43,058 nucleotides of DNA, taken from Shackletoniella antarctica. GTDB taxonomy: Bacteria > Cyanobacteriota > Cyanobacteriia > Phormidesmidales > Phormidesmidaceae. Below, in pieces: positions 7,396 to 36,795 of the stretch. The stretch is from the NCBI GenBank assembly GCA_003241845.1, contig QBMN01000010.1, positions 1-43,058 on the forward strand, written 5' to 3'. Numbering within the stretch: the first letter of the stretch is position 1; the number at the start of each line of letters is the position of its first letter. The notes under the pieces were generated by a model. The model saw nothing but the letters and a program-made list of their open reading frames with translations, did not search any database and was not told the DNA's origin. Both the position numbers and the translations under genes were made by a program.

Positions 7396-7716
7396 ATGTC
7401 ATCGCCATCAAACCGTGAATTAGAGCCTGAGACCCCATCAGCCTCACTGCTAGACCGCATCTTTCGAGATAGTGAGGGTCAAATTATCATCGGTCAAGCC
7501 CCCAACCTGCCGCTCATGGTGGGGTTAGCTGCTACCGTGCTGCAAGCCATTCTCCCCAGCGGCAGCGGCCAGGCAGCCCTAGACCTGATCGCCTTTGGCG
7601 CATGGTTTACCTGGGCCTGGCAAGAACTCTTTGACGGGGTCAACTACTTCCGGCGATCGCTGGGTTTGCTGGGTCTGCTGGGTCTGCTGGCCGCAAGGCT
7701 ATCCGGCGGTCTCTAG
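7396..7716 (+). CDS. Small conserved membrane protein
   Basis: This 106-residue protein has a polar N-terminus (~1-38) and two hydrophobic stretches (~39-55 and ~62-103) separated by a short loop. The central NLPLMVGLAATVLQ and FGAWFTWAWQELFDGVNYFRRSLG segments resemble a cyanobacterial family of unknown function that I recall without a firm name. No catalytic motif is visible. The C-terminus contains a leucine/glycine run (GLLGLLGLLA) encoded by a short triplet-like repeat. It stands alone on the plus strand upstream of a repeat-rich gap. Confidence 0.75.
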   Translation: MSSPSNRELEPETPSASLLDRIFRDSEGQIIIGQAPNLPLMVGLAATVLQAILPSGSGQAALDLIAFGAWFTWAWQELFDGVNYFRRSLGLLGLLGLLAARLSGGL

Positions 7717-7832
7717 TCCCCGTCTTGACGCCCGTCGCCCAAGGGCTTTCGCCCGAGACCTTGCGGCCTAAGACAGAGAACCCCAGCCCTGTCAATGTGG
7801 CCAAACTATTCGCGCAATGCCTATAGGTTAAA

Positions 7833-8085
7833 GGGGCTCTGGCCCCGACCACCAGGGAGTGAACTCCCTGGCTCATCACAAAAGTCTGCTAAAGCAGACT
7901 GGGAAACTTAGCCCACAATCCTCTTTAGAGGAATGGCACTGAATTAAGGCTGGTGGGCAGTGCCCACCCTACGGCAGATCAAGGCTTCTGGCGATCTGCA
8001 AGGGTTAATATTAGCTTATGTCAGTGCCATTCCTCTTTAGAGGATTTCAGCTTTGAGCCTAGGACTAGCAGTCCTAGGCTCAAAG
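7833..8085. repeat. Cluster of REP-like hairpins
   Basis: Hairpins in order: GGGG/CCCC at 7833-7846, CCAGGGAG/CTCCCTGG at 7852-7871, AGTCTGCT/AGCAGACT at 7883-7900, TCCTCT/AGAGGA at 7919-7932, GGTGGGCA/TGCCCACC at 7952-7968, TCCTCT/AGAGGA again at 8031-8044, and a 16-bp stem with an AGC loop at 8051-8085. The two TCCTCT hairpins are also the ends of a larger 24-bp inverted repeat (7919-7942 against 8021-8044, two mismatches), so the centre looks like a small mobile or MITE-like unit. The type resembles cyanobacterial REP-like elements. Confidence 0.75.
7952..7968. repeat. Dispersed palindrome GGTGGGCA-n-TGCCCACC, copy 2
   Basis: GGTGGGCAGTGCCCACC is followed by CTACGG, as in copies at 3941 and 35410. 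It lies at the centre of the inverted repeat 7919-8044. Confidence 0.85.
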
Positions 8086-8168
8086 CCAATCCAAGGGATC
8101 GCCTCGTGAATCTCCACCTTGACATGACTGGACAGAGGAAGCTTAATGCGGCCCTACAGCTCAATACC

Positions 8169-8200
8169 AAAAGCCCGGCCATCAGAATGACCGGGCTTTT
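8169..8200. terminator. Bidirectional terminator hairpin
   Basis: AAAAGCCCGG at 8169-8178 pairs with CCGGGCTTTT at 8191-8200. It has A/T tracts on both sides, so it can end transcripts from either strand, chiefly the minus-strand CsbD-like gene that stops at 8220. Confidence 0.8.
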
Positions 8201-8219
8201 GGGCTAAGCCTGCTTTAAC

Positions 8220-8624
8220 CTATTGGCCAAAGAAACTCTTTACGGAATCTACGATGCCCCCAGCCGAATCTTGAGCTGCATCGGCAGCGTCTTCTACCGC
8301 CCCCTGGGTGCGGCCAAAGTCACGCTGGGCGCGGCCCTCGGCCCGATTGCCTAGGCTGTCATTGCCGCCGGTCACTTTTTCGACCTGGTTCTGCACTTGG
8401 CCAATGCCTTCTTTGGCGCGGCCTTCGATTTGGTTGGCGGTGCCGGCCCCGGCCTTGCTGTCTAATTCGCGCTCGGCCCGTTGTTGCACAACATCACCAG
8501 CTTTATTGCCCAGGGCGGCTGCCGGGGCGCTAAAGCCAAACAGCAGGCCCGAGCCAATTACCAGGGTGGCCAGACCAACGCAGAGAATACGCTGGAGCTT
8601 GGTTGCGATCGCAGTAAACGTCAT
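8220..8624 (-). CDS. CsbD-like secreted protein
   Basis: This 134-residue protein has an N-terminal signal-like segment (basic start, hydrophobic residues ~12-31, then SAPAAALG, cleavage likely after AAA). The mature part is hydrophilic and helical with repeated patterns such as EGRAKEGIGQVQNQVEKVTG and EGRAQRDFG, which recall CsbD/LEA-like stress proteins. The role is inferred as general stress or envelope protection, and no catalytic residues are visible. A strong AGGAG site stands about 9 nt before the ATG. A terminator hairpin follows at 8169-8200. Confidence 0.75.
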   Translation of the reverse strand: MTFTAIATKLQRILCVGLATLVIGSGLLFGFSAPAAALGNKAGDVVQQRAERELDSKAGAGTANQIEGRAKEGIGQVQNQVEKVTGGNDSLGNRAEGRAQRDFGRTQGAVEDAADAAQDSAGGIVDSVKSFFGQ

Positions 8625-12773: not shown

Positions 12774-12798
12774 TAGAAAGTAGTGGATAGAGTAAAAA

Positions 12799-12829
12799 GA
12801 ACCCCGGTTTTTTAGAAAAACCGGGGTTC
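12799..12829. terminator. Terminator between WD40 gene and ctaE remnant
   Basis: AACCCCGGTTTTT pairs with AAAAACCGGGGTT around a TAG loop. It lies between two convergent genes and can serve both. A hairpin with the same core is found at 36763-36795. Confidence 0.8.
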
Positions 12830-12848
12830 TGCATTGTGGGAAGGGTAC

Positions 12849-17756: not shown

Positions 17757-18749
17757 CTAGGGGGTCACGGGTGCCATCTGGGCGATCTGCACCGGGGATT
17801 TTGCCAGGTTGGGGGCGATCGCCGCCAAATACTCCCCGTCGGTGGCGTCTGACCTAGACTGGGCCACCGCGGTGGTCGAGCCCGCCTCAGCCACTCGGCT
17901 GGCCATCCAGTCGGCATAGTCTTCGGTGGAGTGCACAATTACCTGGGTGCGCATGCCGCCGTGGTAGGCCCCACACAGCTCGGCACAGACCACGGGGTAG
18001 GTGCCCTCGCGGGTAGCCACAAACCTTAGCTCAGCCGACTCACCGGGCAGCGCGTCTTGCTTGAGGCGAAACTGCGGCACCCAGAAGGAGTGGATCACGT
18101 CTTTGGCCTCAATGATCAGCTGCACGTCTTGGCCCACCGGCACGTGAAGCTCGCCATCAATAATGTTGGTGTCGGGGTAGGTAAAGATCCAGGCGTACTG
18201 CATACCGGTAACATTCACCGTCAGGTCGGGCGCGTTGCCCAAGCTCTGGGTGCCAGCGCCAAAGCCATAGACCTGGGCCCTAGAAAATACGTCATCTTCT
18301 GGCACCTGGGCCAGCAGCGGAGCCACATCGATGACCGTTTGCTGGGGGGCCATGGCCACCATGGTGCCGTGGTTGTGGTGGCCACCGGGCGAAAACCCGC
18401 CCATCTCTTGAAACACCACCACGCTATAGAGGCCTAGCCCCACCACAATCACGCTAGGAATGGCGGTCCAAAAGACCTCTAGGGGCAGGTTGCCCTTGAT
18501 GGGCAGGCCATCGGTCTCGTCGCCCTTGGGCTGGCGAAAGCGCACCATCGAGTAGATGATCGCCCCCTGCACCACAATGAACAGAGCCGTGCCAATGGTG
18601 ACCATGACGTTAAACAGGTCATCCACCAGGGGGGCCTGCTCTGACGCCTGCACCGGCAGCAGATTGTGGTTTTGCCCCACCCACAGACTGATCAGGGTGA
18701 CGGCAATGCCGAGCACCAGCGTCCAAAAAGGGGCAGGAATTTGTTTCAT
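17757..18749 (-). CDS. ctaC: Cytochrome c oxidase subunit II
   Basis: This subunit receives electrons from cytochrome c or plastocyanin at its binuclear CuA centre. Two N-terminal membrane segments (~10-25 and ~47-68, with a third hydrophobic stretch ~92-113) are followed by a soluble cupredoxin domain. The CuA ligands are H220 (VIHSFW), C255 and C259 (CAELC), H263 and M266. A glycine- and histidine-rich loop, GGHHNHG, at ~122-128 is unusual. A good AGGAGA site lies 8 nt before the ATG. It is first in ctaCDE, with a 149-base gap to ctaD. Confidence 0.96.
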   Translation of the reverse strand: MKQIPAPFWTLVLGIAVTLISLWVGQNHNLLPVQASEQAPLVDDLFNVMVTIGTALFIVVQGAIIYSMVRFRQPKGDETDGLPIKGNLPLEVFWTAIPSVIVVGLGLYSVVVFQEMGGFSPGGHHNHGTMVAMAPQQTVIDVAPLLAQVPEDDVFSRAQVYGFGAGTQSLGNAPDLTVNVTGMQYAWIFTYPDTNIIDGELHVPVGQDVQLIIEAKDVIHSFWVPQFRLKQDALPGESAELRFVATREGTYPVVCAELCGAYHGGMRTQVIVHSTEDYADWMASRVAEAGSTTAVAQSRSDATDGEYLAAIAPNLAKSPVQIAQMAPVTP

Positions 18750-19585: not shown

Positions 19586-19627
19586 GCTGGGATGCTATGT
19601 AATTGTGGATCCCTAAACGCAATGCCC

Positions 19628-19672
19628 AAAAACACGAGAGCGGCAACCATTGGTTGCCGCTCTCGTGTTTTT
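19628..19672. terminator. Long bidirectional terminator
   Basis: A perfect 22-bp stem (AAAAACACGAGAGCGGCAAC on the left, its complement on the right) with T tracts on both sides ends the small gene (plus) and the sigma factor gene (minus). Confidence 0.9.
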
Positions 19673-19707
19673 GGCCCTAAGTTCGCAACTAGCTAGCCCG
19701 CAATGGG

Positions 19708-35346: not shown

Positions 35347-35793
35347 AGCGATGGTGCAAAGAGACCTTGACGCTGATTTTAGGCGACTTCTAAAAAATAG
35401 TTTCCCAATGGTGGGCAGTGCCCACCCTACGACGGCTACAGTCGCTGAATTAAAGCTAGTATCTTCTTTTCTGGAAATCTCCTTAGTCAGGGTTAGTATT
35501 TTTGTCACTGCATGATTTCGCAGCCTGCTATTAAATTATTTGATTTGATGTTGTCTTTGCAACTACGACCCACTACTCTTCACGGCCTGCTAGGGCTAGG
35601 GCTGCTGCTGCGCCTTGGGCGCAACTAATTTTTGAAATAAAGGCGTAATGCCCTGAATAGTTTCACTCCCCAGGTCACAGGTTTTATCTATGGCCATCGC
35701 TTGAACGGGAGTTTGTGCGTTATTCCGAATTCCGGTGCGTCAGGCTTTGCCATGACAGCACCTTACAAAGTTGCACCCTTGGAGACATCCCCC
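35347..35793. other. Intergenic region with a dispersed palindrome
   Basis: About 450 bases hold one copy of the GGTGGGCA palindrome (35410-35426). The frame from 35701 has no support before the leuA-like start at 35794. Confidence 0.6.
35410..35426. repeat. Dispersed palindrome GGTGGGCA-n-TGCCCACC, copy 4
   Basis: GGTGGGCAGTGCCCACC with CTACGACGG on the right repeats the element of 3941 and 7952. A degenerate version lies around 39242-39268. Confidence 0.85.
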
Positions 35794-36762: not shown

Positions 36763-36795
36763 AGATCCCCGGTTTTTTGGAAAAACCGGGGATCT
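36763..36795. terminator. Terminator after the leuA remnant
   Basis: AGATCCCCGGTTTTT pairs with AAAAACCGGGGATCT around TGG. The core CCCCGGTTTTTT and AAAAACCGGGG matches the hairpin at 12799-12829. Confidence 0.8.

Follow-up and report, generated by a model that had tools for sequence, protein, structure and literature searches.

A hairpin cluster in Shackletoniella antarctica as a probable nest of miniature mobile elements

REPs, MITEs, and hairpin clusters crowd many bacterial spacers, and the cause of the pile-up is unclear. What put together such a cluster in the cyanobacterium Shackletoniella antarctica? We examined a stretch of 43,058 nucleotides (hereafter, the window; positions 1 to 43,058 of contig QBMN01000010.1, assembly GCA_003241845.1), which has a chain of hairpins at 7833-8085. 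The source genome is a 4.7-Mb draft in 287 contigs.

We put the probability at about 90% that three kinds of mobile DNA (two miniature elements, MITE1 and MITE2, and a REP palindrome) are nested in this cluster and that IS4-type transposition explains the nest. The first insertion would have been that of MITE1, a non-autonomous IS4-type element that is about 240 bp long and has hairpins lined up along its body, with duplication of about 12 bp. MITE2, a non-autonomous element of 102 bp from a different IS4-type family, would then have entered hairpin H3 of MITE1, duplicating its 10-bp core, and would have brought in the REP palindrome within its body. IS4-family transposases would move both MITEs in trans by cut-and-paste, and the hairpins would persist at least partly as good palindromic targets, rather than as working RNA.

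Layers of the hairpin cluster

The chain of hairpins is real: a script that required a stem of at least 5 bp and a loop of at most 8 nt found exactly seven perfect hairpins in 7833-8085, the number that had been predicted within 250 bp (7833-7846, 7852-7871, 7883-7900, 7919-7932, 7952-7968, 8031-8044, and 8051-8085), including the one with a 16-bp perfect stem. With stems of at least 6 bp, 7833-8085 has six hairpins versus a mean of 0.68 in dinucleotide-preserving shuffles, and none of 1,000 shuffles reached six. With stems of at least 5 bp, it has seven versus a mean of 2.46, and 10 of 1,000 shuffles reached seven. By this loosest count, the maximum for the contig (857 segments of 253 bp each, with a step of 50) is above the seven of 7833-8085: within 18251-18603, there are nine hairpins per 253 bp (at 18301). 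Elsewhere in the window, the longest stem among 39 listed perfect hairpins is at 19626-19674 (24 bp, with a 1-base loop), and similar 15-bp hairpins at 12798-12830 and 36763-36795 (AGAACCCCGGTTTTT.. and AGATCCCCGGTTTTT..) are possibly another dispersed palindrome family.

The neighboring genes that we tested are ordinary: they encode a CsbD-like protein that scores under the family cutoff, a PAP2-family protein, a diacylglycerol kinase, and an SLH-domain FAD oxidoreductase. The gene directly upstream (7396-7716) had no Pfam family match. Just beyond the nest and beside the CsbD-like gene, there is a long hairpin (CCAAAAGCCCGGCCAT..ATGACCGGGCTTTTGG, 8167-8202), perhaps a terminator.

The outer layer is MITE1, at 7784-8130 on the forward strand, made up of about 245 bp that are its own and of the inserted MITE2, and with ends CAGCCCTGTCAATGTG and CACCTTGACATGACTG. 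Its inverted ends are 16 bp long (7784-7799 on the forward strand, with one mismatch to the family end CAGCCCTGTCAAGGTG, and 8115-8130 on the reverse strand, with two mismatches), and a family with such ends is present in this genome and in relatives. In many aligned copies, the inverted ends CAGCCCTGTCAAGGTG are reached beyond the region that corresponds to 7833-8085, and the whole unit in the window is also wider than the predicted cluster, with the nest spanning 7772-8142. A pattern search with up to two mismatches found 52 MITE1 ends in the genome and one for the control. Among 57 genomes searched, 21 (including this one) had a match to MITE1, a number of these being short and partial, and 16 of the 21 were from the same genus.

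We scored 36 distinct copies of MITE1 for which both ends and hairpin H1 were resolved (16 from this genome and 20 from relatives), and 27 of the 36 have a 10-12-bp target duplication with at most two mismatches. Several other copies have exact duplications of 12 bp. In the window, the two copies (GACAGAGAACCC at 7772-7783 and GACAGAGGAAGC at 8131-8142) are identical at only 9 of 12 positions, so this insertion is probably old.

Most of the hairpins belong to the body of MITE1. H1 (7852-7871, CCAGGGAGTGAACTCCCTGG) has 98.2% of its cells paired across 61 copies; H2 (7883-7900, AGTCTGCTAAAGCAGACT) has a CTAAAG target core; and H3 is present twice, at 7919-7932 and 8031-8044. H4 (8050-8086) has a perfect 17-bp stem here (16 bp if taken as 8051-8085) and is imperfect in many other MITE1 copies. 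The first hairpin of the chain (GGGGCTCTGGCCCC, 7833-7846) is outside the family consensus: the 61 copies have the consensus AGGGACTCCGGCCACAACC at this site, and the hairpin is unconserved.

Between the two copies of H3 lies MITE2 (7931-8032, forward strand; 102 bp), with ends GAATGGCACTGAATTAAG and CTTATGTCAGTGCCATTC that form imperfect inverted repeats of 18 bp. Its 10-bp duplication CTCTTTAGAG (7921-7930 and 8033-8042) is exact and is the core of H3. Thus, among the target duplications that were sought, the 10-bp one of MITE2 is exact and the one of MITE1, of about 12 bp, has decayed. The original prediction described 24-bp inverted ends around an inner unit. These are present (7919-7942 versus 8021-8044), but they are imperfect (22 of 24 positions match, because TTTA faces TAAA) and composite rather than one structure, being made up of 12 bp of the outer MITE2 end and 12 bp of the duplicated H3 hairpin. 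The REP palindrome, GGTGGGCAGTGCCCACC at 7952-7968, is within MITE2 and is followed by CTAC (7969-7972), the GTAG tag.

Among the loci of this genome that we examined, there are 24 distinct complete copies of MITE2, and 16 of them are flanked by a 10-bp duplication that has two mismatches or fewer. Across the 65 distinct MITE2-type copies and full-length elements that we examined, 40 have such a duplication, and several of the remaining 25 have duplications of 11-13 bp. Matches to MITE2 were found in 34 of the 57 genomes, many of them partial and often to the palindrome part. In a relative from the same class (G036), MITE2 ends were found 71 and 68 times on the two strands (control, one and one), and its many 90-bp copies with equal scores suggest a recent spread there. 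This genome also has a tandem pair of MITE2 elements in reversed orientation, about 20 bp apart, in one MITE1 (L017/L034, G000:C95).

Full-length insertion sequences with similar ends

In their ends and in the lengths of their duplications, both MITEs appear to match IS4-family insertion sequences. This genome has seven DDE_Tnp_1 matches. Of these, L129 alone is bounded by a pair of MITE1-type ends, and MITE2-type ends that belong to the match itself are absent from all seven. (L130 is a transposase piece inside a MITE1 composite and is apparently a separate insertion.) L129 is an intact insertion sequence of 1480 bp; its 16-bp ends are perfect (TACCCCTGTTAAGGTG), its duplication (AGGTTATGTC) is 10 bp long, and it encodes a transposase of 458 aa. 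This protein scores 111.2 bits against NF033592 (IS4 family; the cutoff is 115) and 54.6 bits against DDE_Tnp_1 (cutoff 23), and its motif YRSRWTVEEMFQVIT is YREK without the final K. The ends of B-type MITE1 copies match those of L129 at 15 of 16 positions. Main-type ends match L129 at 13 of 16 positions and L211, whose own ends are CAGCCCTTTCAAGGT, at 14 of 15. Further inside, we noticed no sequence common to the MITEs and the insertion sequences.

Among other relatives of this transposase, the ends are TACCCCTGTYAAGGTGA in several cyanobacteria and CACCCCTTTCAAGGTGA in a copy on a Cupriavidus plasmid. Its closest named hosts are a Leptolyngbyaceae MAG, a cyanobacterial MAG (94% identity), and two Nodosilinea (88% and 95% over partial matches). 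In Cupriavidus necator, there are many, mostly plasmid-borne, copies of distant relatives with 37-43% identity (L215, L217-L220, L222, L224-L226, L229, L230, and L233), and several that we read have ends CACCCCTTTCAAGGTG and 11-bp duplications.

For MITE2, we found no intact transposase of the matching type in this draft genome, only degraded pieces, so its present mobility here is uncertain. One decayed piece of this type, with stops, adjoins the left part of a MITE1 (L037, G000:C158:1-300). A single MITE2-like end on contig C60 (L111) might have belonged to an autonomous element, but the sequence beside it has no frame of transposase size (the longest before that end is 133 aa).

A family search of two MITE2-rich relatives identified L238 (1489 bp), which was the sole element with the right pair of ends among 18 matches. 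Its transposase scores 236.2 bits against NF033592 (cutoff 115) and 44.7 bits against DDE_Tnp_1 (cutoff 23). At each end, L238 matches MITE2 at 16 of 17 positions (15 of 17 for the left end in the window), and the asymmetry between left and right is kept. Within the genus, the putative partner type was matched in 8 of 26 genomes, including this one. We read six full-length elements of 1478 bp, with 479-residue frames (L306, L308, L309, L314, L320, and L324). One end of all six is AATGGCACTGACATAAG, which is identical to the right end of MITE2 (17 of 17). Their other end, AATGTCACTGACGTAAG (AATGGCACTGACGTAAG in L309), matches the commonest left end of MITE2 (AATGTCACTGAATTAAG) at 15 of 17 positions and the copy in the window at 14 of 17. 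In one species of the genus (G009, which includes L306, L314, L320, and L324), there are seven full-length copies with 479-residue frames and near-equal scores, which suggests recent activity there.

These elements are similar to the IS4 subgroup of the IS4 family, for which Table 1 of PMC2266710 gives the end signature -AATR--------WTW---- and duplications of 10-13 bp. The ends of MITE2 fit the signature, its 10-bp duplication is within the range, its full-length partners are 1478-1489 bp long, and L238 passes the IS4-family model. Compared to the published subgroup, there are two differences: the element in the window has no transposase, and the motifs of L306 (YHLRWQATEVNLRHLK) and L238 (YGWRWQAAEVNLRHLK) are Y(2)R(4)E(6)K instead of Y(2)R(3)E(6)K. 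The YREK residues are all present, with spacing before E that is one residue wider.

Nesting and its alternatives

A BLAST search of the genome with 7819-8110 returned 124 matches (at E values up to 10; in some cases, one palindrome was counted on both strands). The stretch is thus multi-copy, and an objection from single-copy occurrence does not apply. The matches fall into classes: to the outer parts only (query positions 1-114 and 209-285), to the middle only (about 113-214), or to the whole. In 18 of 19 aligned MITE1 copies without MITE2, a single H3 (mostly AATCCTCTTCAGAGGATT) is uninterrupted, and the 19th copy stops at H3. At this position, the window has MITE2 between two copies of H3. 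The MITE1 copies without MITE2 are natural empty sites. Conversely, by their flanks, 15 of the 24 MITE2 copies are within MITE1 sequence and 9 are elsewhere, and outside MITE1 there are clean 10-bp duplications such as GTCCTTAGGT, GACCTTAGGC, and GCCTAAGGTG. Because MITE1 without MITE2 and MITE2 outside of MITE1 are both found in the same genome, the nesting is shown directly, and the predicted nested insertion of palindromic mobile elements is borne out by filled and empty copies.

We also sought an orthologous empty site in relatives. The best relative (L327) keeps the upstream gene, and its contig ends about 150 bp beyond. We looked for the downstream gene in 11 loci of relatives and found it in none.

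How many times MITE2 entered MITE1 is a separate question, and a single old event might account for most of the nests if MITE1 with MITE2 inside it spreads as one unit of about 345 bp. We rate this as just short of an even bet. In most composites, H3 is the site of MITE2 and the orientation is the same, and a variant left duplication (CTTTTTAGAG) is common to L002 and L006, which are at different places. On the other hand, MITE2 is in H3 in the opposite orientation in L012 and in H2 in L019, each with an exact duplication. Together with the common arrangement, these cases indicate at least three insertions of MITE2. There were probably more than three, because there are two versions of the H3 core (TTTA and TTCA) and each is found duplicated on both sides of MITE2, which also argues against one ancestral composite. 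A single composite, spreading as a unit, may still be the ancestor of several of the 15 MITE2-in-MITE1 copies. In L023 and L017, MITE2 is within MITE1 sequence and the duplications do not match. L008 (1494-1838, G000:C276) has MITE2 with H3 on the left and H2 on the right, in a MITE1 with a repeated H2-H3 part, and is probably the product of recombination between MITE2 copies in two MITE1 elements.

There are two other readings of the chain. The original prediction suggested a REP-associated (RAYT or IS200-type) transposase as the mover, and the whole chain could then be a REP- or BIME-like array. The predicted dispersal of the GGTGGGCA palindrome is correct: it is found at four places in the window (up to two mismatches; 0.03 expected) and at 141 genome-wide, where the pattern GGTGGGCANTGCCCACC was searched with up to one mismatch and the reversed-pattern control gave none. 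In 45 distinct contexts of the palindrome, mostly from loci fetched for the MITEs, the GTAG tag is usual (on one side in 37, on both sides in 1, and on neither in 7). The genome does encode RAYT proteins: there are seven Y1_Tnp matches, three of the four that we tested reach the NCBIfam cutoff for RAYT, and one RAYT gene (L140; 86.7 versus a cutoff of 80, although it ends early) is preceded, at a distance of about 60 bp, by a copy of the palindrome that is flanked by GTAG on each side. Nevertheless, MITE1 and MITE2 have long inverted ends of IS4 type, exact 10-12-bp duplications at many sites, and full-length IS4-like counterparts. IS200/IS605 elements are not known to make target duplications. 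The duplications therefore leave a RAYT as a fair guess for the 17-bp palindrome alone, and as the mover of the two larger elements, and so of the whole chain, we consider it very improbable.

The hairpins could instead be kept as working RNA (a terminator, an mRNA stabilizer, or a small RNA), with the mobile ends being incidental. In the alignment of 61 MITE1 copies, 95.4% of stem cells are paired, and seven pairs show two-sided changes versus 2.5 in shuffles (none of 500 shuffles reached seven). In 7700-8300, we found two sites that resemble terminators, of which one is H2 on the minus strand, versus 0.6 expected. Hairpins of MITEs reportedly affect mRNA in other bacteria (PMC3733652). At first, the alignment seemed to be striking evidence of compensatory evolution, but 21 of the 31 cells with two-sided changes are from one pair in H4, which is unpaired in 29 of the 61 copies. 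Furthermore, G-T and A-C mismatches in H1-H4 are similar in number (32 versus 29), so neither strand is favored and nothing points to selection on a single RNA strand. Rfam gave three weak matches in 7600-8300, all far under the gathering scores. An RNA role as the main explanation is unlikely. In our view, the hairpins are for the most part targets and traces left by earlier insertions, and an RNA role in some copies is possible.

Target choice and reciprocal nesting

If the IS4-type explanation is correct, target choice may account for the stacking. We collected 31 clean 10-bp duplications of MITE2-type elements outside of MITE1, from this genome and relatives and with full-length elements included. 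(The other rows were left out: 25 of the 65 have poorer or 11-13-bp duplications, and 9 are in MITE1 hairpins.) The consensus target is NNCTWWAGNN, with a dyad symmetry of 0.43 versus 0.26 in shuffled sites, and none of 5,000 shuffles reached this value. The target core is present in H3 (CTCTTTAGAG; CTCTTCAGAG fits at all but one base) and in H2 (TGCTAAAGCA), and is absent from H1 and H4 of the window. Wherever we read the flanks of MITE2 in MITE1, the insertion is at H2 or H3.

MITE1 itself is in a REP in 15 of the 36 scored copies, always at one position or its mirror image. In the copies that we read, its 12-bp duplication adjoins the GTAG tag (GGTGGGCANTGC|CCACC). This preference comes from relatives (13 of 20 copies) and not from this genome (2 of 16, one of them borderline). 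Among 12 full-length MITE1-type insertion sequences that we read, there is no REP at a flank, which speaks against a simple transfer of the preference from the supposed partner. In one relative (G003), a complete MITE2 is split by a MITE1 that is in its REP (L286), which leaves MITE2 bases 1-39 to one side of the MITE1 and bases 26-102 to the other. Because this REP misses one base, L286 is not among the 15 and is a further case of MITE1 in REP. Thus, each family is found inside the other, with the reverse case seen once for certain. L290 and L165, from the same relative, have MITE1 beside the left end of MITE2 only.

These target rules raise the tentative idea, to which we give somewhat less than even odds, that two unrelated IS4-type families carry each other's preferred landing site: the CTWWAG of H2 and H3 for MITE2 and the REP for MITE1. 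Each insertion would then leave a new safe target for the other family, so that palindromes would be kept and stacked. If so, palindromes would be shared landing pads and a mutual niche between selfish elements, and landing sites for further elements would be a testable reason why palindromic repeats cluster. At this locus, filled and empty sites allow the layers to be read singly, and each layer's target rule would explain the layer that follows.

Among the papers listed by searches of an open-access library, we found none that reports these families or reciprocal nesting. Cyanobacterial MITEs and REPs are already known, and so are IS4-type insertion sequences that target REPs: PMC1525189 describes ISRm22 (IS4 family) and other insertion sequences that do so. 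MITE1 is similar to ISRm22 in being an IS4-type element that inserts into REP palindromes. Compared to that description, MITE1 is non-autonomous and cyanobacterial, it uses a single position of a GTAG-tagged REP, and its hairpins serve as targets for another element. Nezha (cited as Zhou 2008) is a further cyanobacterial MITE, by description a small non-coding element with inverted ends.

The REP is similar to the GTAG-tagged REPs that are treated with RAYTs in the cited part of PMC3733652, in being a short, GC-rich, dispersed palindrome with a GTAG tag and with a copy beside a RAYT gene. The cyanobacterial families in that part are from Anabaena, Nostoc, and Cyanothece, and the likeness is by description rather than by comparison of consensus sequences. 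Unlike the REPs described there, many copies here ride inside MITE2: a script placed 28 of the 45 palindrome contexts in MITE2 and missed at least one (L045). Outside of MITE2, copies often have a wider context in common (approximately AAATAGTTTCCCAAT before and CTACRRCGGCTAYAG after), as at 35396-35441 of the window and in L022 (1624-1670), L009 (2566-2661), L006 (1249-1294), and L020 (1717-1762). It is possible that the palindrome forms the core of a different, longer repeat.
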